Source of the DNA: an uncultured Lactobacillus sp.
GTDB lineage: Bacteria; Bacillota; Bacilli; Lactobacillales; Lactobacillaceae
Direction: 5' to 3'
Length of the DNA: 64,000 nt
Assembly (NCBI GenBank): GCA_905204935.1
Contig: CAJLBJ010000001.1
Span: forward strand, 1-64,000
In this document: positions 812 to 15,895 of the stretch, one piece after another
Numbering within the stretch: position 1 is the first letter of the stretch
Layout of the letters: each line of letters begins with the position of its first letter
The notes under the pieces: generated by a model
What the model was told of the DNA's origin: nothing
Databases searched by the model: none
The model's input: only the letters and a program-made list of their open reading frames with translations
Made by a program: the position numbers and the translations under genes

Positions 812-3800
812 TAAAAAATAGTCACTCTCACACGGAGAGCGACAAAAACGTCATTTTGATGTTTAAAGAGCATAAGGAATTTCAATCCACGCTCTCACAC
901 GGAGAGCGACCAAGTAGTTTATGTAAACATGTGGTTGCGGGATATATTTCAATCCACGCTCTCACACGGAGAGCGACAAATGGTAAATCGCTTTTTATTG
1001 ACGTCTTAGCGATTTCAATCCACGCTCTCACACGGAGAGCGACACAGACGACTTAACTAGCTCAATGCATAAATCCATTTCAATCCACGCTCTCACACGG
1101 AGAGCGACGGTATTGCATAAACTGCTGTCCTTCAACAGTTGTATTTCAATCCACGCTCTCACACGGAGAGCGACAACACCAAAAAATAGTATCATTGCTA
1201 TCGATTTTATTTCAATCCACGCTCTCACACGGAGAGCGACTTTGTAATTATTCGGATGGTACAATTTTAGGTACTATTTCAATCCACGCTCTCACACGGA
1301 GAGCGACACATTAAGTTGGCCGTAGAAGTAATAGGTAAGTGATTTCAATCCACGCTCTCACACGGAGAGCGACATACCCCTGAAGATGCTTATTTTAATG
1401 GTCGTTTATTTCAATCCACGCTCTCACACGGAGAGCGACTTTATTTTGATAATTGTATTGAACAGATTAACAAAATTTCAATCCACGCTCTCACACGGAG
1501 AGCGACGATAGAGTTATCATGCTTATTTCATTTTTATTCCAATTTCAATCCACGCTCTCACACGGAGAGCGACGGTTCTCAAAATCTGCAATATTTGTTT
1601 TGGCATTAATTTCAATCCACGCTCTCACACGGAGAGCGACTATAATTATACCCCAAACAAATAAAAATACCTTAATTTCAATCCACGCTCTCACACGGAG
1701 AGCGACTGGTCATAATTTCATCAAGTGTATATCTGTTTTATTTCAATCCACGCTCTCACACGGAGAGCGACAGTATTATTGGTTTACCGTTTGAATTTTT
1801 TTCTATTTCAATCCACGCTCTCACACGGAGAGCGACCTTTTGCGAATGCTTATCAGTGTGCAGAAGTCTTATTTCAATCCACGCTCTCACACGGAGAGCG
1901 ACGTGCGTTTTTGGGTAGCATTGATATCAATGCAGCAATTTCAATCCACGCTCTCACACGGAGAGCGACTTTTTTGGTCGTTTGTCAGCTCACGATTATT
2001 ATGCATTTCAATCCACGCTCTCACACGGAGAGCGACTGCGTTTTTTGTTTCATTCTGCTATACTAACAATTATTTCAATCCACGCTCTCACACGGAGAGC
2101 GACAAAATGTCTTAGAAATAATTTTAGGGGCGTTTGAATTTCAATCCACGCTCTCACACGGAGAGCGACGGCTCTCTTTTGCTTAGCATTAAACCGCAAC
2201 ACCATTTCAATCCACGCTCTCACACGGAGAGCGACGGTTAGAAATAAATTGAAAGCAGCACTTAGTTCTATTTCAATCCACGCTCTCACACGGAGAGCGA
2301 CTGGAGAATATGTATTTGTATTTAACGCATGAATCATTTCAATCCACGCTCTCACACGGAGAGCGACTTAACGCTTCTGCTACCATCGCCTTAGCGTTAG
2401 TGATTTCAATCCACGCTCTCACACGGAGAGCGACTGTATCCTGATGGTGACGGTTTTCCAAGTGATTGGATTTCAATCCACGCTCTCACACGGAGAGCGA
2501 CTAATAAATTTTTTAGCAGGTTTAGTATATCAAGATATTTCAATCCACGCTCTCACACGGAGAGCGACTTGTGATCTAGGAAAAGAAATAGAAATTTCTA
2601 TCATTTCAATCCACGCTCTCACACGGAGAGCGACAATATCCGTCAAAAATTAGTTCAGGTTGTTTTAAAAATTTCAATCCACGCTCTCACACGGAGAGCG
2701 ACATTGGTGGCAATACTTTTTTAATTGCTTCTGCTCATTTCAATCCACGCTCTCACACGGAGAGCGACCATAGCCTTGTTCGGCTACGGCTTGGCGAACT
2801 CTTATTTCAATCCACGCTCTCACACGGAGAGCGACAGTACCCATGTTCTTCTAAAAAATCATTTTTAAAGATTTCAATCCACGCTCTCACACGGAGAGCG
2901 ACATGTTCTTTATATAGCAAGAAATCCTGTAACGGTTATTTCAATCCACGCTCTCACACGGAGAGCGACAAGATGTGTTGAGAGACTTGGATGAAATGTC
3001 TAAATTTCAATCCACGCTCTCACACGGAGAGCGACCTACACATTCATTTTAATAATGCATATCGTCAAATATTTCAATCCACGCTCTCACACGGAGAGCG
3101 ACCAATGTCTGCAACTGTTTCAACGTCTTTTACTAGCATTTCAATCCACGCTCTCACACGGAGAGCGACGCTTCATCATTGTGAATTACTGCGTTGTAAA
3201 TGTATTTCAATCCACGCTCTCACACGGAGAGCGACTACTGTTGCCGTTGTTTCTGTTTCACAGCTATTTTATTTCAATCCACGCTCTCACACGGAGAGCG
3301 ACTGATTAGGTGCAGGCGGATTTTGTTCAGCAAGATATTTCAATCCACGCTCTCACACGGAGAGCGACAAAAGCCAATTTTTTAAAGAGTCTCCCCTTTG
3401 TAATTTCAATCCACGCTCTCACACGGAGAGCGACTTAGATGGTGCTTATCAACGTAATAAACGTAATATTTCAATCCACGCTCTCACACGGAGAGCGACT
3501 AATTAACGTTGATGATGATAACCAAAATTCTGACATTTCAATCCACGCTCTCACACGGAGAGCGACTGAATAGTAGTCATGCTTTTTGATAACAATCTGC
3601 GATTTCAATCCACGCTCTCACACGGAGAGCGACAGTACTAATGCTAACAGCGAGGAAAGTATAACATATTTCAATCCACGCTCTCACACGGAGAGCGACC
3701 TTAATTTTTGATTACTATCTGCTTGTTGTATTGGATTTCAATCCACGCTCTCACACGGAGAGCGACAATTGAACATCACGAACAATCTATTAATTTCTTA

Positions 3801-4361
3801 ATTTCAATCCACGCTCTCACACGGAGAGCGACATGGGCTACAGTATTTCATTTGCAAAACACTCTAATTTCAATCCACGCTCTCACACGGAGAGCGACAG
3901 GTCATTTCAGCTTGAAATTCTTTAACCCCTGTAATTTCAATCCACGCTCTCACACGGAGAGCGACAGAGTTAGAAAAGTACAAAGAAAAAGATAAAAATA
4001 TTTCAATCCACGCTCTCACACGGAGAGCGACAACGAACTCTATTAAAGATATTCATGAGTATAAGATTTCAATCCACGCTCTCACACGGAGAGCGACGGA
4101 GATAAACGTCAGCTTTTAAGAGATATGATTATTTCAATCCACGCTCTCACACGGAGAGCGACAGAAAGTATTCCAGATGATTGGAAAACCAAACTAATTT
4201 CAATCCACGCTCTCACACGGAGAGCGACAGTTTTTTTCTACCGAGATTGCTTTCAGCAAAACTATTTCAATCCACGCTCTCACACGGAGAGCGACACAAT
4301 GGAACACTGGTTTATCCATTTTACTAATTATTTCAATCCACGCTCTCACACGGAGAGCGAC
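812..4361 (-). CRISPR. Type I-C CRISPR array, 54 repeat copies, 53 spacers
   Basis: The repeat unit is 32 nt. In transcript (minus-strand) orientation it begins GTCGCTCTCCGTGTGAGAGC and ends GTGGATTGAAAT. This is the usual I-C layout: a GCTCTC/GAGAGC hairpin followed by an 11-nt handle TGGATTGAAAT. I counted 53 repeats that read identical by eye, plus one degenerate copy at 812-843. Repeat-to-repeat distances are 65-68, so spacers are 33-36 nt. The degenerate copy keeps the 20 bases nearest the previous spacer but has lost the handle; this marks 812 as the old, distal end. cas2 lies 148 bases from the other end, so the leader is at 4362-4509 and new spacers enter at 4361. Cas5c is the expected processing enzyme. 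Confidence 0.98.
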
Positions 4362-4509
4362 AGCGCGAAAGTACGCAATTTTTATGAGTCTTAGTCTAAA
4401 ATTAAACTTTAATTTAGCTATTGATCTTTATTTTAGGACTCAAATTATTAATTTTTTTACGCGAACCTCGTATAAATTAATGTTTAACATAGGTTCGTTA
4501 AAGACTATT
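4362..4509 (-). promoter_or_regulatory. CRISPR leader, with inverted repeat
   Basis: This AT-rich stretch runs between the cas2 stop and the first repeat and should hold the array promoter and the leader sequence used in spacer integration. Its main feature is a perfect 7-bp inverted repeat, CGAACCT at 4462-4468 and AGGTTCG at 4491-4497, with 22 bases between. No U tract follows either arm, so it is not a standard terminator. I could not assign a clear -35/-10 pair. Confidence 0.7.
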
Positions 4510-4803
4510 TTATAAAATTAAAAGATCTTTATCAGGATCGTATGAATCATTTTTTCCAATCTTTTCTAATCTTTTTTGCCAATTTTTTCCAAGAAGATAA
4601 AATCTAATACTATCATTTTTTAAATCAACTATTTTTGCTAATTTATACTTTATTTCTACAAATTCAGCTGGGGTAATTGAACATTCAAAAACAGAATTTT
4701 GAACTCTTTGTCCATAATCAACACATAGCTTCGCAACTTTTCGTAATCTAGATTTTCCAGACTTACTTTCAGTATTGACATCATAAGTAATTAAAACCAT
4801 CAT
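4510..4803 (-). CDS. cas2: CRISPR-associated endonuclease Cas2
   Basis: A 97-aa Cas2, the structural partner of Cas1 in the spacer integration complex. The N-terminal beta strand VLITYDVN carries the conserved Asp (D8), and the GQRVQNSVFEC segment is typical of the family. It is last in the cas operon, 18 bases after cas1, and next to the leader. Two consecutive Met codons open the frame; the one at 4803 was taken, with GAGGGA upstream. Confidence 0.96.
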   Translation of the reverse strand: MMVLITYDVNTESKSGKSRLRKVAKLCVDYGQRVQNSVFECSITPAEFVEIKYKLAKIVDLKNDSIRFYLLGKNWQKRLEKIGKNDSYDPDKDLLIL

Positions 4804-4821
4804 AAATATAATCCCTCATCT

Positions 4822-5850
4822 CTAAATCATAAACGGTGGATACGATTCTATTTCACCACGAATTGTCTTTGCTAAAAGTTGTGCTTGAACATACGGTAAT
4901 AACATTATCTTTATCTTTTCATCAATATACGGATGCGTAATCTCCGAAATATTTCTTTTTTGCCAATTTTCTAAAAAAACTTTTCGGCCTTTTTCGTTTA
5001 AAAAGACACTACCATTTTCCTTTATTTCAAAATGCTTTTCATTAACTTGTTTTCTGTTAATTAATGAAAAAACAAATCTATCCACCAAGTAAGATCTAAA
5101 TTCTTCTATCAAATCCAACGCCATTCCAGCTCTTCCAGGCCTATCTGTATGAAAAAAACCAACATAACTATCTATTCCAACAGTTTCTAGTGCTGCTTGA
5201 CATTGATTAGTTAACAACGAGTATCCAAAAGATAACATTGCGTTTACACAATCCATTGGAGGTCTTTTTGATCTTCCTTCAAAATAAAATATATCTTTAT
5301 TGGCTAGGATACATTCATTAAACACACTGAAATAAGTATTTGCTGCATTTCCTTCGATTCCTCGAATACTATCTTTATCACTACTATTTTGAATTTGATA
5401 AATCATATTCAAAAGATTTTCTTCAGTATCATTAAAAACATTCTCATTAATAATCGCTCTATGATCCCTTTGAAATCTAATTAGATATTTTCTAGAATTA
5501 GAAATTTTCGCAGTTATACTATTTCGAACATAATCTATAGACCTAGCATCATCGTCAGCAATTCTATACTGTTCTCTTCTTAGCAAGACATTGCCATTTG
5601 TTTTTCCAATAAACCGTCCATAAAAATGTCCGTATGGTGACAAAAATGATAATGCTATATTAGTCTCATTGCACAATTGAATAGCAGATGGAGAGACTCC
5701 TAAGTAAGAAAAACAAACTATCCCTTCTAAAACCCGAAATGGAAAGCGTTTGATAATCTTACCATCTTCCTTGATTACAATATTATCTCGATCTCGAGTG
5801 ATATAATAATTTTCTTGGGTAACGTATAAAGTATTTAATAATTTTCTCAC
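4822..5850 (-). CDS. cas1: CRISPR-associated integrase Cas1, type I-C
   Basis: A 342-aa Cas1 that joins protospacer ends to the leader-proximal repeat. The metal-binding catalytic residues are visible: E166 in GIEGNAANTYF, H234 in GFFHTDRPGR and D246 with E249 in ALDLIEEF. The start is GTG at 5850, overlapping the TGA of cas4 (GTGA), so translation is probably coupled to cas4. The length fits the I-C family. With cas4 and cas2 present, the adaptation module looks complete. Confidence 0.97.
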   Translation of the reverse strand: MRKLLNTLYVTQENYYITRDRDNIVIKEDGKIIKRFPFRVLEGIVCFSYLGVSPSAIQLCNETNIALSFLSPYGHFYGRFIGKTNGNVLLRREQYRIADDDARSIDYVRNSITAKISNSRKYLIRFQRDHRAIINENVFNDTEENLLNMIYQIQNSSDKDSIRGIEGNAANTYFSVFNECILANKDIFYFEGRSKRPPMDCVNAMLSFGYSLLTNQCQAALETVGIDSYVGFFHTDRPGRAGMALDLIEEFRSYLVDRFVFSLINRKQVNEKHFEIKENGSVFLNEKGRKVFLENWQKRNISEITHPYIDEKIKIMLLPYVQAQLLAKTIRGEIESYPPFMI

Positions 5851-6515
5851 AATACTTCATCTCCCATAATAGCATTCTTAATATAGTTACTAGTGTTTTT
5901 GGATTTTTTACTGAGTCTAGGCATACAAACATCTACTAAAGAACAGGTTTGACAATTCCTAAAATATTCCGCTTTAGGTAACTTACCTGTACTATAAAAA
6001 ATATGCATTTGTTTCGCATATGAGGTAACTTCCGCTCGTAAACTTTTGGTAATTTCAATTTCCTGTTTATTATTTGTACTATGATAATATAAATAACTTT
6101 TATCTATTTTACAACCTAATGTTTCTTCTAAACAAATCACTTCTGCAACTAGTTGAATTATGTCTCTATTATCTTTTTTAGGTTTCCCCCGTTTATATTC
6201 GACTATATACGGTTTCCACTTTCCACGCTTATGATTAACTTGAATTCCTTGCGAATCTTTATGGAATTCTACAGCATCCAAGATTCCGACTAATCCCAAT
6301 TCCTTTGAGAAAACATGCATTGCTCTAGAAATAAAGATATCTTTTCTTTTCTCTTTTAGCAAAGGATTATCAACTTTTGTATGAATAAATTGTCCTTCGA
6401 TAGTATACTCATTTTCCTGCCATTGCTGATTTATATGGATAAGCCCCCATTGACGTTTACAAAAATAAAAATGTTGAATCCCTGAAAGCATTAAATAGTC
6501 ATCTTCTATCGACAT
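5847..6515 (-). CDS. cas4: CRISPR-associated exonuclease Cas4
   Basis: A 222-aa RecB-like nuclease with an iron-sulfur cluster. In the I-C adaptation complex Cas4 trims prespacers and enforces PAM selection. The four cluster cysteines are visible: C19 (FYFCKRQWG) and C188, C191 and C197 (NCQTCSLVDVC). Nuclease residues include H45, D80 in GILDAVE and E106/K108 in VEYKRGK. It begins 2 bases after the cas7 stop and overlaps cas1 by 4 bases, within the single minus-strand cas operon. Confidence 0.96.
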   Translation of the reverse strand: MSIEDDYLMLSGIQHFYFCKRQWGLIHINQQWQENEYTIEGQFIHTKVDNPLLKEKRKDIFISRAMHVFSKELGLVGILDAVEFHKDSQGIQVNHKRGKWKPYIVEYKRGKPKKDNRDIIQLVAEVICLEETLGCKIDKSYLYYHSTNNKQEIEITKSLRAEVTSYAKQMHIFYSTGKLPKAEYFRNCQTCSLVDVCMPRLSKKSKNTSNYIKNAIMGDEVL

Positions 6516-6517
6516 GA

Positions 6518-7369
6518 TTACTTACCTGTTAAATGTTCAAATGTTAATCCTTGTGCTTGATACTTAGCTAGTTTTTCTTCATCTAACTTAATTTGATAAT
6601 CATTATATTCTACATTTGCAATATCTTTGGTATCTGCCCAAGTTAATAACTCGCGAATATTAGCACTTGAAACATTTCCTAATTTATTGCTATGTTCAAA
6701 CCAGAATAAATCTTTGATTGCCATAGATCCCTCTGGCCGTGCTGATGAAGCATCATTTTCAAATAACGTCAACAAAGCTTCTTTCAATACTGCTAAATCT
6801 TTATCATCAAATCCTGTTTTTTCGGAAAGATATGCATTTACTGATCCATAAACTACATAAACTGCTTGTTCAATAAAATGCTTGCTTCCCATCGTATCAG
6901 AAGAACGTCCAGATTCGTTTTTAGTTTCCATACCATTTGTACTACGTGTAATTTGCATAGTAGTTGTAGCAATTGGGCGTAAAGATCTCGCGATACTAAT
7001 TGAAACTGGTCCTCTAATTCCAATTGACTTTTTCAAAAATGTAATAACTTGACCAAAAGTTCTTACATCTAGCCATTTCTCATTAGATTCCTTTTCGATT
7101 TTTTCATCGCTATCTTTAGATGTAAAACTAGCTTCAAAACGTTTTTGAAGAGACATAAAATCATCATCGATTCTATCACGAGATTTAACAAAGATATCAT
7201 ACCCCATGTCTTGCATCCGATTACGAATTTTACGTTTAATCGCAACATCACTAATTAATCCATACCCATTCGAATCAATTCGTGGCATATTGCCCGCTAA
7301 TGGATCACCATTAGGGTTAGCATACTTCACATCAATAGTCATAATAAAATCAATCTTGTTATTAATCAT
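6518..7369 (-). CDS. cas7: Cascade backbone protein Cas7 (Csd2)
   Basis: A 283-aa type I-C Cas7, which polymerises along the crRNA spacer to form the Cascade filament. The Csd2 opening is clear: IDFIMTIDVKYANPNGDP, then SDVAIKRKIRNRM. It also contains the GIRGPVSISIARSLRPI and SSARPEGSMAIKDLFWFEHS segments typical of the family. The gene follows cas8c by 2 bases. If the putative regulatory RNA upstream of cas5 is real, it would be bound by this same filament. Confidence 0.97.
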   Translation of the reverse strand: MINNKIDFIMTIDVKYANPNGDPLAGNMPRIDSNGYGLISDVAIKRKIRNRMQDMGYDIFVKSRDRIDDDFMSLQKRFEASFTSKDSDEKIEKESNEKWLDVRTFGQVITFLKKSIGIRGPVSISIARSLRPIATTTMQITRSTNGMETKNESGRSSDTMGSKHFIEQAVYVVYGSVNAYLSEKTGFDDKDLAVLKEALLTLFENDASSARPEGSMAIKDLFWFEHSNKLGNVSSANIRELLTWADTKDIANVEYNDYQIKLDEEKLAKYQAQGLTFEHLTGK

Positions 7370-7371
7370 TT

Positions 7372-9237
7372 TTATTCCTCACTTTCTTTTTTAGAAAAAA
7401 TATAACCATTTTCTGCATAATATCCAAAAATAAAATTATAATCCAATGGATTGTTAACCTCTGATGATAAGTAATAATTGTCATTGATTTTTTGGATAAT
7501 TTCAGACTGCTCTTTATCAAGTTTTATAAATAAATGATAATTTGATTGTAATAAGCTTCTTTTGTAAACAGAAGTTTTTCTAATCAATGTTTCCATAAAA
7601 ATCGCTGGTTGATTAGTATACGAAGTCCAAAACTTTTGTGCATTTGTCAACCTTTTTTCATCTGCTCCAAATGTAGCAGCTTCAATTCTTTCAAAAACAG
7701 CTAACAATCGTCCATATAAATACGAACGATTTGTATATTCCCTATCTAACATAGGTGTTAATTCCTCCTTACCTTTATTGTGGAACAATCCTAACGTTAC
7801 AGACTGTATTGTCATCCACGTTTTTTCATATTTTAATCGTTGGCGAATATTTTGATCAGCAGCTCTTAAAATATTATCTGGTACATTTTTGCCATCAATT
7901 AAACTAGTAATTAATTTCTCAAATTCAGCTTTAAAAAAGCTCTCGTTTCTTAACTCTAATCCTTTGTCTTCTTCAATTCCATAAGATACTAGAATCATTT
8001 GAGCCATTGACGGAACATATTTTTTAAGCTGTTTTGTAGTTTTATCATAATATTCCCATTCATTGTCTGATTGCCACTTTTTTAAGTTATCAAATAATCT
8101 AGATACTTTTAATTCTCTGAAGTATTTTAAAGAAATTCTACCATTACTTGCTTTATCAATAATTGCAACATAATATGATGCATCATCAGAAAATTCTTGA
8201 CGACCTTTTATAAAGGATTGTCCAACTAATTTGTTCTCCTCTGTAACTACATTTTTGGCATCATCATCTAATTCGTCTAAAAATGAATTAGATGGATATA
8301 CATAATCTAATTGACTTTCATTAGAAATATCATCTGAGAACCAATTAATCATATATTGGCTTTCTTTTAACCATTTCCGACTATTATTATTTTCTAACAG
8401 ATACTTTAACATTAAGTGGATTTTTTCTGAGGTTTGATACCCTATAGAGATGATATCTTCCCCCTTATTAAATCTTCCCTTATAATTTTCCGTATTATTA
8501 CTTACAGATATTAGTTTTGCATTTCCCATCAATCCACGATGCTTAGTAGTTAACTGTTGCATTGTTCCGCTGATATTGCAAAAGCCTTTTGGTAAATCAA
8601 GATGTTCAACGTATCTTACATACTCTTGATGCAAATCAACATTTTCTGTTATAGATACATCTCTAGCTCCATTAAAATCAATAATTTTAAATGTTAGAAA
8701 AACAGCATTAAAATCAACTCTTTTAGCTTTTCCATTTTCTGAATAACTTACTTTAAGACAATCTCTATCTATATTTTGATTAGGATATAATTTTGATAAC
8801 AATAAATCGAAGAAATTTTCTTGAGTTAAAAAATTTTTTATCAAATCTACAAAGTTCTTTACTTCAGGATCTTTTATTGCTTTAAAAAATTTATTCGACT
8901 CTTCTAAATACATTTGATGTAATTGAACATTGTCATTCGTAAGATATGATAATTTATCAATCAACGGGTGACTCAAAGGAAATTTACCTGATCGAGCTAT
9001 TGAATCTTGGCTAACCGGAAAAATAATTTGTTCATCCTTAGGCAAAAAACTAGCAGAAACTAACTTACCTTCTTTATCTAAACAAGCTTCCACTATATTA
9101 GTACCACTTGACCTTAAATTTGTATGGTACAGTGGTAACAGCACAGTTTTATCACCATCATGCTTATCAACTAACTCTTTTTCCTCACAGTATTCATACG
9201 CACGTAACAACGCACTCAAAAAATCCACATTAATCAC
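7372..9237 (-). CDS. cas8c: Cascade large subunit Cas8c (Csd1)
   Basis: A 621-aa Csd1-family protein, close to the usual length. It is the large subunit that recognises the PAM and helps open target DNA; in I-C systems an internal start in this gene can also give the small subunit. Recognisable segments include VLLPLYHTNLRSSGTNI near the N-terminus, NISGTMQQLTTKHRGLMGNAKLIS, DDASYYVAIIDKASNGRISL and RSYLYGRLLAVFERIEAATFGA. It lies 10 bases after cas5 and 2 bases before cas7. I did not identify the Cas11c start. Confidence 0.96.
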   Translation of the reverse strand: MINVDFLSALLRAYEYCEEKELVDKHDGDKTVLLPLYHTNLRSSGTNIVEACLDKEGKLVSASFLPKDEQIIFPVSQDSIARSGKFPLSHPLIDKLSYLTNDNVQLHQMYLEESNKFFKAIKDPEVKNFVDLIKNFLTQENFFDLLLSKLYPNQNIDRDCLKVSYSENGKAKRVDFNAVFLTFKIIDFNGARDVSITENVDLHQEYVRYVEHLDLPKGFCNISGTMQQLTTKHRGLMGNAKLISVSNNTENYKGRFNKGEDIISIGYQTSEKIHLMLKYLLENNNSRKWLKESQYMINWFSDDISNESQLDYVYPSNSFLDELDDDAKNVVTEENKLVGQSFIKGRQEFSDDASYYVAIIDKASNGRISLKYFRELKVSRLFDNLKKWQSDNEWEYYDKTTKQLKKYVPSMAQMILVSYGIEEDKGLELRNESFFKAEFEKLITSLIDGKNVPDNILRAADQNIRQRLKYEKTWMTIQSVTLGLFHNKGKEELTPMLDREYTNRSYLYGRLLAVFERIEAATFGADEKRLTNAQKFWTSYTNQPAIFMETLIRKTSVYKRSLLQSNYHLFIKLDKEQSEIIQKINDNYYLSSEVNNPLDYNFIFGYYAENGYIFSKKESEE

Positions 9238-9247
9238 CTCTTTTTAT

Positions 9248-9967
9248 TTAAAAATTTTCATATTCTTCATACTCAGTTCCAACGTCTTTAACTTGACTAC
9301 TTTCTTTAAAAGAATATGTTGATAACTCATTTATAACTTCACAATCTTCTTGATTTTTAAAAACAATCGTACTGTCTTTCATAACAGTTTCTGTGTAACA
9401 GCTTTTTAGTTTTTCTTTAGAAGACTTAGGATATATAAATGAGTGAAACTGTAGACCAAATGAGATAGTTTGATTAAAATATGCACCTTGTGCATTATCG
9501 TAATCTTCTTTAGTGATTCCAGTTACTAAACCTACACATTCTCTAGTACCTAAAAATACATCTCTCCGTCCACCACGTTGAATTGAACGTTCCGTTATAG
9601 CTTCATGTTTTTTCATATTACGATCTTGTTTAAGATCTTCACGAGTTAGGTTCCACTCAAAATGATATTTAACTAGGTACTTTACATCTCTTAAATAAGT
9701 AACATAGTTAAGATCAGCCCCCATGTTATTTAACAACATTCTACTCCCCATTGTTTCTGTTTGAATAGGGTTTATGACTTTAACTTCATCAATAATATTA
9801 ACTATTGTAGGTTTATAATAAATCGCATCTACAATTCCATTTAGCGCTTGTCTCGAAGGCGCATTGCACGAGACGTTCTCGCCACCACCTTTAGTTGTAG
9901 GATTAGTAAACAATGCATAATCCCCTTCAAGACAGACATAGAAAAACTTCGACTTTTCATTATCCAT
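9248..9967 (-). CDS. cas5c: Cas5c (Cas5d) pre-crRNA endonuclease
   Basis: A 239-aa Cas5 of the I-C subtype. In this subtype Cas5 replaces Cas6: it cuts each repeat at the base of its hairpin, leaving an 11-nt 5' handle, and stays at the crRNA 5' end in Cascade. The catalytic Lys-His pair described for the family is present as K120-H121 (NMKKHEAI), followed by SIQRGGRRDVFLGTREC. It is first in the cas5-8c-7-4-1-2 operon. A strong AAAGGAGGTG lies just upstream of the ATG at 9967, and a consensus promoter lies at 9991-10019. Confidence 0.97.
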   Translation of the reverse strand: MDNEKSKFFYVCLEGDYALFTNPTTKGGGENVSCNAPSRQALNGIVDAIYYKPTIVNIIDEVKVINPIQTETMGSRMLLNNMGADLNYVTYLRDVKYLVKYHFEWNLTREDLKQDRNMKKHEAITERSIQRGGRRDVFLGTRECVGLVTGITKEDYDNAQGAYFNQTISFGLQFHSFIYPKSSKEKLKSCYTETVMKDSTIVFKNQEDCEVINELSTYSFKESSQVKDVGTEYEEYENF

Positions 9968-9980
9968 CTCACCACCTCCT

Positions 9981-9999
9981 TTCTATGTAAATGATAATA
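9981..9999 (+). promoter_or_regulatory. Putative CreR target: TTC PAM plus partial protospacer over the cas5 -10 box
   Basis: TTC at 9981-9983 is followed by TATGTAAATGATAATA (9984-9999). The candidate regulatory RNA carries TATGTGAAGGATAATA directly after its handle. They agree at 14 of 16 positions; the mismatches are position 6, which does not pair in type I Cascade, and position 9. Agreement ends after position 16. The site covers the -10 box (9991-9996) of the cas5 promoter and touches the Shine-Dalgarno region. Function is inferred. Confidence 0.8.
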
Positions 10000-10019
10000 A
10001 ATAACGCAGAGGATGTCAA
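9991..10019 (-). promoter_or_regulatory. Promoter of the cas5-cas8c-cas7-cas4-cas1-cas2 operon
   Basis: On the minus strand, TTGACA (10014-10019) is separated by 17 bases from TATCAT (9991-9996). Transcription should start near 9984, giving a very short leader before the AAAGGAGGTG and the ATG of cas5. The -10 box lies inside the proposed CreR target. Confidence 0.85.
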
Positions 10020-10037
10020 CATCATTTATCTAAAAAG

Positions 10038-10066
10038 TTGATTTTTTTAAAGTAACAGGTTATCAT
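10038..10066 (+). promoter_or_regulatory. Promoter of the CreR-like RNA
   Basis: On the plus strand, TTGATT (10038-10043) and TATCAT (10061-10066) are 17 bases apart. The expected start, about 7 bases downstream, is near 10073, exactly where the degenerate repeat begins. It is back to back with the cas5 promoter, and both use the same -10 hexamer. Confidence 0.75.
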
Positions 10067-10072
10067 ACAGAC

Positions 10073-10163
10073 TATAATCACGAAATTTTCGTGTGGATTG
10101 AAGTTATGTGAAGGATAATATTCCTTAAATTCAGTTGGTCGTGTCATATGGCACGACCTTTTT
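10073..10163 (+). ncRNA. creR: CreR-like crRNA-mimic RNA (degenerate repeat, 33-nt spacer, terminator)
   Basis: Bases 10073-10104 align end to end with the 32-nt array repeat. The last 12 bases, GTGGATTGAAGT, match the repeat at 11 of 12, which preserves the Cas5c handle. The upstream hairpin has a wholly different sequence (CACGAA/TTCGTG, 10079-10093) but the same place and shape, so structure has been kept rather than sequence. Bases 10105-10137 are 33 nt, a normal spacer length here, and begin with the sequence matching the cas5 promoter beside a TTC. The RNA ends in a terminator hairpin whose stem begins GTCG, like the array repeat. Family knowledge: CreR RNAs guide Cascade to repress cas promoters using short, non-cleavable matches. 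Alternative: a dead remnant of an old array; the intact promoter, terminator and PAM-flanked match argue against that. Confidence 0.82.
10137..10163 (+). terminator. Intrinsic terminator of the CreR-like RNA
   Basis: GGTCGTG (10137-10143) pairs with CACGACC (10152-10158), followed by TTTTT on the plus strand. The minus strand has no U tract past the hairpin, so it should not stop cas3 transcripts, whose stop codon lies inside the T tract (10162-10164). Confidence 0.88.
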
Positions 10164-12612
10164 ATAATACAAAAGTCGCTCCTTCTAAATTAATTCCTAA
10201 AGCATTATCGTAATAATCTTCAGGCAATATTTGAACGCTAGCATCTAGGTACTTTGATGTAAAATCTGATAGTTTATTCCCTCTTACATTAACCGTATAG
10301 GGTTGTAATTGTTGTAAAATATTTTGAATATCTTTTAGGTATTCTGAATCATAATTACGTTCATATTTGTCAATCGTCACTATTAACTCTTCAATTTTTT
10401 CTTTAGCATCACCATAATAAATAATTACACCTGTCGATTCATCTTGAATCAAATCCATTTTATCAGCAGCAGTTTTATATTTTTGATACATAAGCCACTT
10501 TCTAGGATTTCTTTTCGATAACAACTCATAAACACTTTCGTTATCTTTACCTAACGAATAGTCAAAATCTTTTTCGTTTGCATAGTATTTTTCAAAAAAT
10601 TTATCATTTAAATCAGTAATATTAATTTCTCCATGCTTATCAATAATAATTTGACTGGTTTTATCCTTTTTGCTTTTAATTTCCTTTAAAAAATCTAATT
10701 TTTCTTCTTGTGAATCAAGATTTAACAATAAAACATCACCGTTAGTTTTTTTACCTTCACGATTACATCTTCCAGCAGATTGAACTATTGAATCGATACC
10801 TGCATATGATCTGATTACCATATCAAAATCAACATCGACGCCTGCTTCGATGAGTTGTGTGCTTACACAAATGATCGGCTCATTTTCAGAAAGTTTTTTC
10901 CTAATTTCATCAATAATATCTAATCTATGCTTAGGACACATGTTTGTTGATAAATGATAAATTTTCTTTTGACTATCTAAATTTTGCAATTCTTCATACA
11001 TTTTTTTTACAGCATTTTTTGTATTTAATATTATTAAAATCGACTTATTCAAAACACCTTTAATCTGGGTAGCTGCTGTTGCTATATCTAAAATATTACT
11101 CTTCAAATTAAAATACTCTTCAAATTTGTAAATATTTGTACGTTTAAAGATATTGCTTTCTTCTTGACTTAAAGTCACCAACTCTGAACTTTCATTACCT
11201 TCTCCACCATAAACGACAGTATGCTTTAAGTATTTCGAATCAAATTTAGGTTGTGTAGCAGTGCATAATACAACTGTTGCATTCATAATATTTTTTAAGA
11301 AATTGACAGTTAAATTAAACAAAGTTGTAACTTGAACAGGTAGTGATTGTACTTCGTCTAAAATAATCACGGAATTAATTAAACTTGAAAATCGCCGCAA
11401 ATTAGCTGATTTTCCTTTAAACAGGGTTTGAAAAAATTGAACCATTGTACTCAAGACAACTGGACTATCCCAAGTATCTAATAAATATTCCTTCATAATA
11501 GAAGTTTTAGTATCTTCTTCTTGTTGGTCAATCTCATTATTGCCATCATATTCAGAAACCATATTTGAATGATGCTCTAAAACACCATTTTCGCCTAGAA
11601 TTCCTTTTATTTCTTTGGCATTTTGCTCTAAAACTGATAAATAAGGGGTAATATAAAAAAATCTTTGTTTTTCTTGATTAATTTGATGAATTCCATAACG
11701 CATACTCAATTTAGTTTTTCCTGCACCTGTTGGCAAATTCAATTTATAAATCCCAGTTGTATCATTTAAAGCTCGTTTGTTTAATCTATTAGCAATTGCC
11801 ATACGTATCTTATTTAACTCTGTTTGCTTCTCTAAATTTTTCTCATATTGTTGATAGAGTAGCTCAATTTTTTCTAAATATTGATGTTTTAAATCTAAAA
11901 CTTCATTTTGAGTATAAGGAGTAATTTCAAATTTATACGCATTAATTGTATCTAAAATATCAGCATTTTTTAGCAACGATAGATACAATCTTTGAACTAG
12001 AGAAAAATAATAAAACATTTCGTCTGTGCTTTGTTTTAATTTATTTACTTTTTTAAAAATATTTTCAAAATCATTGAACGCCGCAACTATTAATTCATCA
12101 ATATTCTTAAATTGATTATTTACAATTAAACTTTTATCTATCTCCTTTACAAATGAATCAATATCTTCATAATTATAATTTGGATTTTTTATGTATTCTT
12201 GCATTCTACGGTACAAATTACTTTCCATATAAGTAGTCTTATTTGACCCTGATAAAGGTATATCATAAATTCCATGATGTGCACTAATTGTATAGCAAAC
12301 TAATTCTGTAAAAATTTTAACAATCCCTTTATCATAAGAGTAAATTTCAAGAACTGTTGAAATTTTTTCAAATAAAAAATATGCGCCTGCCGAAGAATGA
12401 TCAACTTTATCATTAGGCTTCTTCATTAATTTATTTTGAAAAGCTTGGCTGGCTTTCCCTAAATCATGAAAAATACCAATTAAAAACAACACATTCTCTT
12501 GTCCAACAGTTTGTGCTTCCTTCGCTCCACTGCGTGCAACATTAAAAAGATGATCTAACAATAATTGGTTATCAGATCCATTATGATGTGCATAAATCTT
12601 TTCTTTTTCCAT
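10162..12612 (-). CDS. cas3: CRISPR-associated helicase-nuclease Cas3
   Basis: An 816-aa Cas3 that is recruited by target-bound Cascade, unwinds DNA and degrades it. The HD nuclease comes first: H21, H49-D50 in GIFHDLGK, H72 in DHSSAGAY and H112-H113 in SAHHGIYD. The SF2 helicase follows: Walker A PTGAGKT (294-300), DEVQ (419-422), a CTATQP motif III, QLIEAGVDVDFD and QSAGRCNREGK. The ATG at 12612 has GAGGTG upstream. It is separated from cas5 by 194 bases holding the putative CreR and so is probably transcribed from its own promoter. Readthrough from cas3 would be antisense to the CreR-like RNA and could also reach cas5. Confidence 0.97.
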   Translation of the reverse strand: MEKEKIYAHHNGSDNQLLLDHLFNVARSGAKEAQTVGQENVLFLIGIFHDLGKASQAFQNKLMKKPNDKVDHSSAGAYFLFEKISTVLEIYSYDKGIVKIFTELVCYTISAHHGIYDIPLSGSNKTTYMESNLYRRMQEYIKNPNYNYEDIDSFVKEIDKSLIVNNQFKNIDELIVAAFNDFENIFKKVNKLKQSTDEMFYYFSLVQRLYLSLLKNADILDTINAYKFEITPYTQNEVLDLKHQYLEKIELLYQQYEKNLEKQTELNKIRMAIANRLNKRALNDTTGIYKLNLPTGAGKTKLSMRYGIHQINQEKQRFFYITPYLSVLEQNAKEIKGILGENGVLEHHSNMVSEYDGNNEIDQQEEDTKTSIMKEYLLDTWDSPVVLSTMVQFFQTLFKGKSANLRRFSSLINSVIILDEVQSLPVQVTTLFNLTVNFLKNIMNATVVLCTATQPKFDSKYLKHTVVYGGEGNESSELVTLSQEESNIFKRTNIYKFEEYFNLKSNILDIATAATQIKGVLNKSILIILNTKNAVKKMYEELQNLDSQKKIYHLSTNMCPKHRLDIIDEIRKKLSENEPIICVSTQLIEAGVDVDFDMVIRSYAGIDSIVQSAGRCNREGKKTNGDVLLLNLDSQEEKLDFLKEIKSKKDKTSQIIIDKHGEINITDLNDKFFEKYYANEKDFDYSLGKDNESVYELLSKRNPRKWLMYQKYKTAADKMDLIQDESTGVIIYYGDAKEKIEELIVTIDKYERNYDSEYLKDIQNILQQLQPYTVNVRGNKLSDFTSKYLDASVQILPEDYYDNALGINLEGATFVL

Positions 12613-12743: not shown

Positions 12744-14462
12744 CTAATTATTTCGAACTTTTTTCATCAACTCTTTTTGTAATTGTTCATCCACAGCATA
12801 CAAATATAATCCTTTGACACCTCGAGTTAGCAAAACATTTAATTCATGCTTTAAGAGCTCTGGACCAAAAGATATCATTTGAGAACCTTCTTTAGTTATA
12901 ATTGAACGTCGTTGTGTTGCTTTTTTATTAGCACTCTTTGCTGGATCAAAGACAATTTTACCGTCACGATAAGTCACTGATGGTCCTAAAATAACACCTG
13001 CATAATTTAGATCAAAGCCTTGAATCGTATAGGTTGAACCAATTTCATTGATAGTTATCGCCTGTTCAGCCCAGGAATCTTCTTTGCTACTATTTGGATC
13101 TTTGAGTTGTAGATTCCAAGGTAATTTCCAATCACCAATTTGAACATATGACAAGTCACCTTTTGAATTTGTCTTGTATTCCCAATCAAAGGTCGCAACC
13201 ATCCGTGACAATCCTGCTTGTTCTTGGTTTTTCTCAACTATCGCTTGATGCATCTTAGCTGGATCATCAAAGACTCTCAAATCATATTTATCATCTTTAG
13301 GTAAAGTTTTAATTGTACCATCATCAATCAGCGTTCTAAGCCAATCAATTGTTTTTTCATTAGCATTCATACGCATTTGATTCATCAAGGTAAATTCTTG
13401 CACTGGATAATCATTACCTAATGTTTGTAAAATATCTTCTTGCCAGATTTGTTCACGTGTTAAAATTTGTTTATCATCAAATACCGCAATAACTACTTTG
13501 GCCCGATCTAACAAATCAATTAATTGATTTTTACCGCGATATGATTGTTTCCCTTGTGTTAATAAAAGATGAGCTTCATCCACTAAAATTACATCAACTT
13601 TTTGTTTTGGACTATGCTTATTGATAAAGGATGTTGGTTTAGCAACCACTTCATCTTTTTTCTTTTCTAAATCTAACTTACTAGCAATCGTTTTATAAAC
13701 CGTTAATTGTTCATTATGGTTAACCAAAAGATGCACATCTTTTGCTCTTTTCGCTAAATTATAAAATAAACTACTCATTAAAACTGTTTTGCCTGAACCT
13801 GCTTCGCCTCTAACTAAAATCAATTGTCCACTTTGTTTTTTAGCTATCGCTTTATCTACAAGTTCCAAAATTGCAGTTTGTGCCTTTTCTTGTTCCTTAG
13901 TCAAACTATGGAAAGGAGAGGCTTTAAAAATTGCCGAATTAACAATTTCTTGTTCTGAAATAAACAGATTTTGATTTTTTTCATGTAATTTTTTCCAAAT
14001 CTTAGTAAAAATCAATGACATTTCATTTGAAGTATAGTATTTTTTTTGAGCATTAGTGCGTTTATTATGGATTTTTTCAACATTTGGCACACAAGATAAA
14101 TACTGCATCATTTTATTTTCGATATCTAATGTCAAAGATTTATTAAAATGTTCATGTCCAATAACATACATCAGCGAAGTTTTAGAATTTCTAAAGTTAT
14201 CCCAATAATTTCCATTCTTGCTGTCTTTAATTAAATGTTCATTGGTACGTTGTGCTATATCGTTGGTTTCACCAACATAAACTTTATATTTACTTCTTTT
14301 TTTCAATCGATCATCTTGAATAATATAGACAGTTGGATAATCGGTAATGTATTCGACATTTTCTTCACCAATTTCTTGTCTTACTTTTTCCTCTAAATCA
14401 TACGTTGCTAAATCCGTATATGCTGTTTCATAAATCACCGGCGCACTAACTTGTTTTTCCAT
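12744..14462 (-). CDS. GIY-YIG nuclease fused to DUF2075 P-loop helicase-like protein
   Basis: 572 aa from the chosen start. The N-terminal GIY-YIG domain shows TVYII (44-48) and VYVGET (61-66) with an Arg shortly after. The C-terminal part is a DUF2075-type P-loop ATPase related to superfamily 1 helicases: Walker A GEAGSGKT (219-226), Walker B VILVDEAH (291-298), then TYTIQGFDLNYAGVILGP and VLLTRGVKGLYLY. A nuclease plus ATPase domain suggests DNA or RNA processing, possibly defence, but no specific function can be assigned. An ATG lies 24 bases further upstream, but GAGGTG sits just before the ATG at 14462, so I prefer that start. It is next to cas3 but has its own terminator, so it is not part of the cas operon. 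Confidence 0.85.
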   Translation of the reverse strand: MEKQVSAPVIYETAYTDLATYDLEEKVRQEIGEENVEYITDYPTVYIIQDDRLKKRSKYKVYVGETNDIAQRTNEHLIKDSKNGNYWDNFRNSKTSLMYVIGHEHFNKSLTLDIENKMMQYLSCVPNVEKIHNKRTNAQKKYYTSNEMSLIFTKIWKKLHEKNQNLFISEQEIVNSAIFKASPFHSLTKEQEKAQTAILELVDKAIAKKQSGQLILVRGEAGSGKTVLMSSLFYNLAKRAKDVHLLVNHNEQLTVYKTIASKLDLEKKKDEVVAKPTSFINKHSPKQKVDVILVDEAHLLLTQGKQSYRGKNQLIDLLDRAKVVIAVFDDKQILTREQIWQEDILQTLGNDYPVQEFTLMNQMRMNANEKTIDWLRTLIDDGTIKTLPKDDKYDLRVFDDPAKMHQAIVEKNQEQAGLSRMVATFDWEYKTNSKGDLSYVQIGDWKLPWNLQLKDPNSSKEDSWAEQAITINEIGSTYTIQGFDLNYAGVILGPSVTYRDGKIVFDPAKSANKKATQRRSIITKEGSQMISFGPELLKHELNVLLTRGVKGLYLYAVDEQLQKELMKKVRNN

Positions 14463-14482
14463 CTTTCTTTCCACCTCAAACA

Positions 14483-15076
14483 TCATACTTGTAATTCTCG
14501 TTTTTTAAAGACCCAGATGCTACTTAAAAATGATACTATAGCCGCTAAAAATAAGCTAAGGCTTTCGGTATAAGCTGGAGTATTTGCCACTAATTTATTA
14601 GCATCAAACAGCGTAAAAACCGTAAAATAGCGTAAATTAGCCAACTTATCGCCCATGTTAGCTAGCATTTGAAGCACATACATCAAGGCACAAATTCCTG
14701 CACTAACCGTTAAGCACTGTTTAGTATCGTTGGCACTGACTGAACATAAAAAGCAAAAGGCTGCTAAACTTCCTTGCTCTAGATACTTAGCCATCAAGCC
14801 GTTAGCTCGAATAATGCTATAAACCATCGGAAAGACTAATAAAATAAAGCTATACAAATAAGAAATCATAAAATGCATCAGACTATCCGGTGTTCCTTGC
14901 ATCCCAACGACTGCCATCACTTCAGGCATCACTTTTTCAAATCACTGCAAGGCTTGCGCTGTTTTTTGGTCGTACATCCCGATAATCAAGACGATATACA
15001 TTGTTAAGATTGCCATAAAAATCACTAACAACTTAAGTGAACTGCGCATTTCTTTTTTAAATAATGCTAGATTCAT
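14483..15076 (-). pseudogene. Broken ABC-2 type permease
   Basis: Reading from the ATG at 15076 gives MNLALFKKEMRSSLKLL and a first membrane helix, then an in-frame TGA at 14942-14944 where the frame otherwise continues as FEKVMPEV. Downstream, membrane helices (FMISYLYSFILLVFPMVYSII) and the C-terminus continue in the same frame. As I recall the family, members are about 280 aa; this frame totals 197, and the EQGSLAAFCFLCSVSANDTK region looks like a fusion of two separated segments, so an internal deletion is also likely. It partners the broken ATPase upstream, overlapping it by 20 bases. Confidence 0.8.
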
Positions 15077-15895
15077 TATTTAACACCTCTTTTTCATAGT
15101 AGTCTAAAAAGATTTCTTCTAAATTAGCCCGATGCTTCACTAAAACTTGACCGCCAAAATCATGGCTAAAAGCGGTCGCTAACTGCGGCGTGTCTAAGCT
15201 GACCATGTATGTTCGCACGTGTTTTTGGCTCAGTTTTTCGGATTTTTCAGACGTAATCAAGCGCCCTTTACGTAAAATGCCAACTTGATCGGCTGTTTTT
15301 TCAACTTCTTCAAAAATATGACTAGCCATTAAAATCGTGGTCCCTTTATTTTTTTGTTCTTGAATCAATTCAATAAAACGTTGTTGCATCAAAGGATCTA
15401 AACCGCTCGTTGGCTCATCTAACAACAAAATTTCTGGTTGATGCATGAAAGCGGCCACGATACCGACCTTTTGTTTCATTCCTTTACTCATTCTTTTAAG
15501 CTTAATCTTAGGATTTAATTCGAAGCGCTTTATTAATGAGTGCATCGTTTTTTATCTTGCAACCCCCGATAATTAGCCCAAAAATCGAGATACTGCTGAC
15601 CTGTCATATCATCAAAAAAGTTAATTTCTCCAGGAAGATAGCCTAGTTTTTCTTGAATCGCGCTCGCAGCTTGCCAACAATCTAAATTATTAATCCGACA
15701 AGTTCCTTGCTTGGGACGTAAAAAGCCCATCAAATGACGTAACAATGTCGATTTGCCCGCTTCATTTGGACCTAAGAGTACATAAATCTGCCCAGCTTCA
15801 ACTTTTAAAGAAACTTCAAATAAACCACGCTCGTTTCCATAATCACACGTCAAATTAGTAACTTCAATCACGGCCATTTTGCATCTTTCCTTCAC
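15057..15895 (-). pseudogene. Frameshifted ABC transporter ATPase
   Basis: Two overlapping frames make up one ATPase. The first runs from an ATG at 15877 (AGGAAAG upstream) through VLLGPNEAGKSTLLRHLMG to ANYRGLQDKK. The second continues MHSLIKRFELNPKIKLK with the signature MSKGMKQKVG, Walker B EILLLDEPTSGLDP and the H-loop ASHIFEE. The break is at 15533-15550, beside a run of six A on the coding strand. Walker A also has Glu where GPNGAGKS is normal. Together with the broken permease this is a decaying drug or peptide exporter. A sequencing error in the A run could explain the shift but not the Walker A change or the permease stop. Confidence 0.85.

Follow-up and report, generated by a model that had tools for sequence, protein, structure and literature searches.

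Liu et al. 2023 (Cell Host Microbe) reportedly showed CreR RNAs for types I-B, I-E and V-A, and Shmakov et al. 2023 (NAR) are said to have catalogued crRNA-like regulatory elements, mostly of type I and often in the form of two-repeat mini-arrays. In type II, Cas9 is said to regulate itself by means of a natural single-guide RNA with a short match to a cas promoter (reportedly in Workman 2021). CreR is reported for type I and type V-A in the available text of PMC12737573, and it is also described in PMC12948488, in passages that give no subtype names. A degenerate ectopic repeat and a partial match that guides Cascade to a promoter are likewise found in the CreA RNA of CreTA pairs, whose target, as far as the accessible passages go, is a toxin RNA gene (PMC9458426) and whose seed is 11 bp long (PMC10989794). 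The CrePA RNA uses the same logic of repression through the Cas complex on a KilA-N protein toxin and reacts to anti-CRISPR proteins (PMC12737573), while the solitary repeats called Racr, known also for I-C, are phage-encoded inhibitors that lead to aberrant Cas subcomplexes in I-F (PMC10651486). Type I-C is among the commonest CRISPR subtypes (PMC7684278). The locus presented here carries the idea of autorepression to this subtype: an element in it is very likely the gene of a guide RNA of the CreR type, by means of which Cascade would hold down the expression of the genes that encode it.

The window, by which we mean the whole 64-kb stretch of DNA analysed, has on its minus strand a complete type I-C locus composed of cas3, cas5c, cas8c, cas7, cas4, cas1, cas2 and an array (Table 1). 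Among the array copies listed the repeat spacings are 65-68, corresponding to spacers of 33-36 nt, with 23 further copies beyond these. Its Cas5c shares 99% identity with a protein cluster that bears the name of Ligilactobacillus sp. Marseille-Q7487, and the window therefore most probably comes from this genus, in which I-C is rare according to the available passages of PMC11288051; no guide RNA of this kind is mentioned in those passages. Just upstream of cas3, between 12550 and 12800, no promoter-like site was found (2.0 are expected by chance), and cas3 may therefore be transcribed from further upstream. The frame directly upstream of it on the same strand (12744-14486) has a GIY-YIG match near the protein start and a Schlafen group 3 helicase domain, and cas3 may be co-transcribed with this Schlafen-domain gene. 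Two overlapping frames at 15057-15895 correspond to the end and the beginning of ATPase profiles (AAA_21 and ABC_tran, with mad3, AriA and PtuA-like hits) and are perhaps one interrupted defence gene.

Table 1. Features of the type I-C locus and of the guide element in the cas3-cas5c gap (window coordinates).
Feature	Position	Strand	Details
CRISPR array	879..4365 (end approximate)	-	53 repeats GTCGCTCTCCGTGTGAGAGCGTGGATTGAAAT
cas2	4510..4803	-	TIGR01573
cas1	4822..5850	-	TIGR03640 (type I-C)
cas4	5847..6515	-	TIGR00372
cas7 (csd2)	6518..7369	-	TIGR02589
cas8c (csd1)	7372..9237	-	TIGR01863
cas5c	9248..9967	-	TIGR01876, 2e-73; first gene behind the targeted promoter
PAM TTC	9981..9983	+	directly ahead of the target
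Protospacer-like target TATGTAAATGATAATA	9984..9999	+	14/16 against the guide; within the predicted cas5c promoter
Predicted promoter of cas5c-cas8c-cas7-cas4-cas1-cas2	9991..10019	-	TTGACA 10019-10014, 17 nt, TATCAT 9996-9991; 11/12
Predicted guide-RNA promoter	10038..10066	+	TTGATT, 17 nt, TATCAT; 9/12 consensus
Hairpin CACGAAATTTTCGTG	10079..10093	+	15 nt; 6 bp stem, 3 nt loop
Degenerate repeat handle TGGATTGAAGT	10094..10104	+	10/11 identical to the handle of its own array, TGGATTGAAAT; predicted 5' handle after the Cas5c cut
Guide part, start of the spacer-like stretch, TATGTGAAGGATAATA	10105..10120	+	14/16 against the predicted cas5c promoter, mismatches at 6 and 9
Remainder of the spacer-like stretch	10121..10136	+	positions 17-24 without target match; 32 nt in all ahead of the terminator
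Intrinsic terminator GGTCGTGTCATATGGCACGACC, then TTTTT	10137..10163 (10137-10158 plus T-tract)	+	predicted RNA 3' end
cas3	10162..12612	-	TIGR01587, TIGR01596; ends at the terminator of the guide RNA, upstream of the targeted promoter

The gap between cas3 and cas5c is 194 bases long (9968-10161) and holds a lone degenerate CRISPR repeat together with a stretch that matches a cas promoter, an earlier observation that our analysis confirms. On the plus strand, opposite to the cas genes, a promoter-like site is followed by a hairpin and an 11-base handle, then by 32 bases that resemble a spacer, and lastly by an intrinsic terminator. A sequence-only reading of this DNA had claimed that the Cas5c handle is almost intact and that a hairpin of new sequence occupies the place of the CRISPR repeat's hairpin; both statements hold, and the last base of the hairpin is the G that precedes the handle. 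It is thus a repeat-like sequence, with its processing handle kept, that lies within the cas locus and is not part of the array, as is characteristic of CreR. The promoter-like site, from which an RNA 5' end near 10073 is predicted, is weak taken alone (the consensus scan gave 4 sites in the stretch against 1.9 expected). The terminator is the only terminator-like site between 9900 and 10250, where shuffled sequences lead one to expect 0.1, and the predicted fold of the 88-nt RNA beats 200 of 200 shuffles (z -4.4).

TTC is the type I-C PAM. The same reading had placed the partial match beside a TTC and over a -10 box, and this is what we find: the target covers the -10 hexamer of the cas5c promoter-like site, which has the top score of the consensus scan in the stretch. 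That the match then stops was equally correct, since positions 17-24 all differ. The window thus has a PAM-flanked partial match to the promoter of its own cas genes, confined to the PAM-near part, as is also characteristic of CreR. The pattern of PAM plus site, searched over the 64 kb with the two mismatched positions open and at most 2 mismatches allowed, occurs once and exactly, against 0.05 expected, an expectation that is generous because the pattern was derived from the finding itself.

For the comparison, 96 I-C loci were gathered through Cas5c, of which 93 had a cas5 hit and 92 were analysed after removal of one near-duplicate. Excluded were L158, L166 and L175, in which tblastn detected no cas5, and L069 as a near-duplicate of L070; L004, L005 and L043, at the same places as L069, L070 and L002, and L006, whose cas5 is cut at the contig end, never entered. 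The Bacilli set comprises the window and three named loci, together with the order samples taken around Streptococcus thoraltensis (of the Lactobacillales) and around Lacicoccus alkaliphilus (L001; placed by NCBI in the Caryophanales), and the phylum sample derives from 56 fetched places, mostly the best-scoring, of 110 matches in 106 genomes. No more than one element was chosen per locus, by handle and hairpin only and blind to any target, in a region that began 1.5 kb upstream of the first cas gene and extended to cas8, with arrays and cas genes left out. A qualifying hairpin-handle element was present in 37 of the 92 loci. The other 55 had none, among them L003, L042 and L073, with a cas5 57-58% identical to that of the window, and there the element is either dispensable or was missed.

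The spacer of each of the 37 elements was then scored against its own locus and, as a control, against the other loci. When sites were sought within 400 bp of the element and beside TTC only, with a threshold of at least 12 of 16 positions, this first swap test gave 21/37 own-locus matches and 17/1332 with swapped spacers. Eleven of its 16 misses, taken up again under looser rules, yielded four convincing sites (L044, L055, L060 and L140). The search rule was widened after these misses had been seen (L044-type distant targets; L051 and L054 with CTC), and the second swap test added 600 bp upstream of cas3, 400 bp upstream of cas5 and the CTC PAM, for real and swapped spacers alike. At the same threshold the own-locus matches now numbered 27/37, against 31/1332 for the swapped ones; at 14 or more of 16 positions they were 20/37 and 8/1332, all 8 of the latter between loci with near-identical spacers. 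As no real score of 11 occurred, the scores form two groups. Within the 27 matching loci the PAM is TTC in 25 and CTC in 2, the only PAMs allowed in the search. The matches are unevenly distributed: in the Bacilli set (35 loci) 23 elements were found and 23/23 have a target, in the phylum sample (53 loci) only 3 of 13 elements do, and a further 4 loci from the family of G193 contributed 1 element, which has one. L059 (13/16, exact handle, no hairpin) fell below the selection score and is uncounted. In L141, outside the formally tested regions, the guide matches 14/14 readable positions at position 72 (cas sense), with mismatches only at 6 and 12 and the PAM TTT instead of TTC.

The 27 guides form 20 clusters, which makes it possible to see how guide and site have changed with respect to each other. 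Two guides from different clusters agree at a mean of 4.9 of 14 readable positions and never at more than 9, whereas a guide and its own site share 13.2 of 14 (at least 12). The expectation of the sequence-only reading that seed and promoter site would change together across relatives while the handle stays is thereby borne out: the base before the handle is G in 20/20 cluster representatives, and the handle core is nearly invariant across the 20 clusters, a constancy that is partly by construction because the elements were chosen by handle. L065 and L072 have a different array handle, their repeats ending in TGAATTGAAAT, and the elements carry CGAATTGAAAT and CGAATTGAAAA, that is, the handle core of their own array.

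The mismatches that do occur are far from randomly placed. Although the choice of site weighted all 16 positions equally, the 27 pairs are mismatched at position 6 in 20 cases, at 12 in 15, at 16 in 8 and at 10 in 4, and at positions 1-5 and 7 in none (0/27). With one locus per cluster, 28/44 mismatches are at 6 or 12 against 5.5 expected, a result reached in 0/200,000 simulations. L045 and L046, which have a common site, carry guides whose first 16 positions are identical except for 6 and 12. In the type I-E Cascade every sixth crRNA base (6, 12, 18 and so on) is flipped out (PMC5965380), and the I-C complex, too, is described as a filament of Cas7 in which Cas5c occupies the handle (PMC7684278). 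The earlier proposal that a mismatch is tolerated at a base that Cascade flips out is thus sustained for position 6, in the window and in most of the 27 pairs, and extends to position 12; it does not cover the second mismatch of the window, at position 9, which is not a flipped base. This signature at 6 and 12 is more direct evidence that the elements serve as Cascade guides than any single match could be.

The position of the targets with respect to promoters is less uniform. Of the 27 targets, 11 score at least 9/12 against consensus promoters, compared with 26% of random placements, and their mean promoter-overlap score was reached in 1/200 simulations, modestly above chance and with a control that is poor for L065 and L072, where its range ran to cas3, which is downstream there. 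The generalization that targets are on a -10 box is consequently unsupported. The nearest Cas5c among the fetched loci is that of L044 (66%; proteins at 67% exist without fetched DNA). Its element is in the same cas3-cas5 gap as in the window, but the guide is aimed at cas3 and not at cas5: it matches at 15/16, differing only at 6, and its site follows closely on the -10 box of a TTGACA-17-TATTAT promoter-like sequence, 29 bases upstream of cas3. In other relatives the element is upstream of cas3 and the target is in that region. Between target and cas3, six relatives (L051, L054, L056, L057, L061 and L064, possibly also L063) have a conserved hydrophobic protein of 50-56 aa, for example at 2243-2410 in L057 and 2270-2437 in L061 (cas-sense coordinates), which is absent from the window and for which 0/4 sequences scanned reach a Pfam cut-off; the repressed unit in these six may include a small membrane protein. 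In L002 (Streptococcus thoraltensis) about 1.3 kb (8684-9989) separates target and cas5, and a frame there gives the impression of a transposase piece.

Could the RNA instead be mainly an antitoxin guide, the CreA of a CreTA or CrePA pair, that silences a toxin and matches a cas promoter incidentally? The hydrophobic protein of the six relatives would suit such a role, and CrePA provides a precedent for the same repression of a protein toxin (PMC12737573, available passages). We nevertheless regard this as very improbable. In the window, 17 nt separate the end of the target from the start of cas5c, which leaves room for only about that much untranslated toxic RNA, and examination of the short frames in the window revealed no credible gene between site and cas5c that could be a toxin under the targeted promoter. 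Of five short frames (21-48 aa) that touch the gap, a single one, a 44-aa GTG frame, has its start behind the targeted promoter and on the same strand; as it is almost wholly within cas5c and out of frame, it was judged no gene. The distance from the end of the site to the gene is similarly short in L001 (18 nt) and L044 (29 nt), and no frame of at least 25 aa occurs in the gap of L066, which is 170 nt long.

Slightly less probable still is that the element is a stray, decaying repeat from an old array or leader, its similarity to the promoter being accidental or due to a local duplication. The repeat is indeed degenerate, the hairpin half sharing on average 7.0 of 21 letters with the repeat of its own array (25 loci with known repeat), and the many loci in which no element was found would fit with decay. 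Decay would not, however, preserve the combination of handle, hairpin, PAM and guide match in 27/37 elements and 20 guide clusters, nor would it place the mismatches at positions 6 and 12; stems of at least 5 pairs in 20/27 elements against 15% at random places point in the same direction, as supportive evidence only, the elements having been chosen partly on the stem. Least probable of all, in our judgement, is a decoy RNA whose degenerate repeat binds Cas5c or Cas7 and inhibits directly, like phage Racr, with no promoter targeting. The solitary I-C repeat unit RacrIC1 gave a phage an advantage against I-C in strain PAO1 (PMC10651486, available text), but a decoy has no need of a PAM-flanked match and leaves both the co-changing match and the 6/12 signature unexplained. 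Racr genes belong to phages or other mobile elements and are separate from cas genes; the present element is inside the cas locus, between cas3 and cas5c. The gap DNA gave no match to plasmids, no Cas5c pattern was found in viral contigs, and the 21-mer formed by the handle and the first 10 guide letters is absent from these contigs (exact match only).

The interpretation offered in the sequence-only reading, a CreR-like autorepressor of a type I-C system, is thus supported by the genome comparisons, and it can be put as a predicted mechanism. A short RNA, starting near 10073 and ending at the terminator near 10163, would be cut by Cas5c between hairpin and handle (before 10094), with Cas5c remaining on the handle. 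Cas7 and Cas8c would assemble on the 32-nt spacer-like part, and the 3' end would be provided by the terminator in place of a second repeat. The complex would then pair over about 16 bp at the site on the -10 box of the cas5c promoter and block RNA polymerase. As the pairing ends after about 16 bp, cutting by Cas3 is not expected; in type I-B, Cascade is reported to repress without cutting at spacers of 24 nt or less (PMC10989794, available passages), and by analogy we infer that the short match prevents cutting here. When Cascade is occupied by crRNAs from the 53-repeat array, or an inhibitor blocks it, expression of cas5c-cas8c-cas7-cas4-cas1-cas2 would resume.

We lean, with some reserve, towards a wider reading of these results, namely that the I-C systems of Lactobacillales and relatives possess a distinct class of self-silencing guide, which has a single repeat, is cut by Cas5c and ends in a terminator, and which has repeatedly been re-aimed at the controlling cas promoter, that of cas5 in the window and that of cas3 in L044. 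RNA and promoter would form a lock and key on which selection acts only via the bases that Cascade can pair, with 6 and 12 drifting freely and 1-5 never differing, and the Cascade of the window, where the targeted promoter is behind cas3, would shut off the effector and spacer-acquisition genes and may leave Cas3 alone. A test that uses genomes only predicts guide, target and mismatch pattern for each locus, and the natural pairs of guide and site would be an evolutionary read-out of the bases read by type I-C Cascade. If autorepression by the element is true, I-C cas levels are set by the amount of free Cascade, so that cas expression would go up in the presence of anti-CRISPR proteins or a long array, and the guide would put a limit on genome editing with I-C tools in these bacteria.

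With the type II case the element would share RNA-guided autorepression of a cas promoter via a short match, although type II uses a long-form tracrRNA with Cas9 and not a repeat-derived RNA with Cascade. It resembles Racr in being a solitary repeat and differs from it in that promoter targeting is no part of the Racr mechanism in the available passages of PMC10651486. The degenerate repeat and partial promoter match recall CreTA, whose target is not a cas promoter in the accessible text (PMC9458426); CrePA resembles it as a crRNA-like RNA that represses a gene through a Cas complex, but the window gap has no KilA-N gene (PMC12737573, available text). Neither a toxin RNA nor a toxin protein, the mark of both pairs, was found under the targeted promoter of the window. 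The resemblance is closest with CreR as described in the available passages of PMC12737573 and PMC12948488: a crRNA-like RNA, a degenerate repeat outside the array, a partial cas-promoter match and, as predicted for the window, Cascade-dependent autorepression. Word searches of a limited literature collection returned no I-C example of CreR. The window differs from the reported CreR cases in subtype (I-C), in relying on Cas5c in place of Cas6, and in having one repeat and an intrinsic terminator in place of a second repeat. The elements reportedly catalogued in Shmakov 2023 are similar as stand-alone repeats with a spacer partly complementary to a cas promoter, and are often two-repeat mini-arrays where the window element has a single repeat. 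The element would act in the manner of CreR and be set apart by the combination of one repeat, a terminator and Cas5c.
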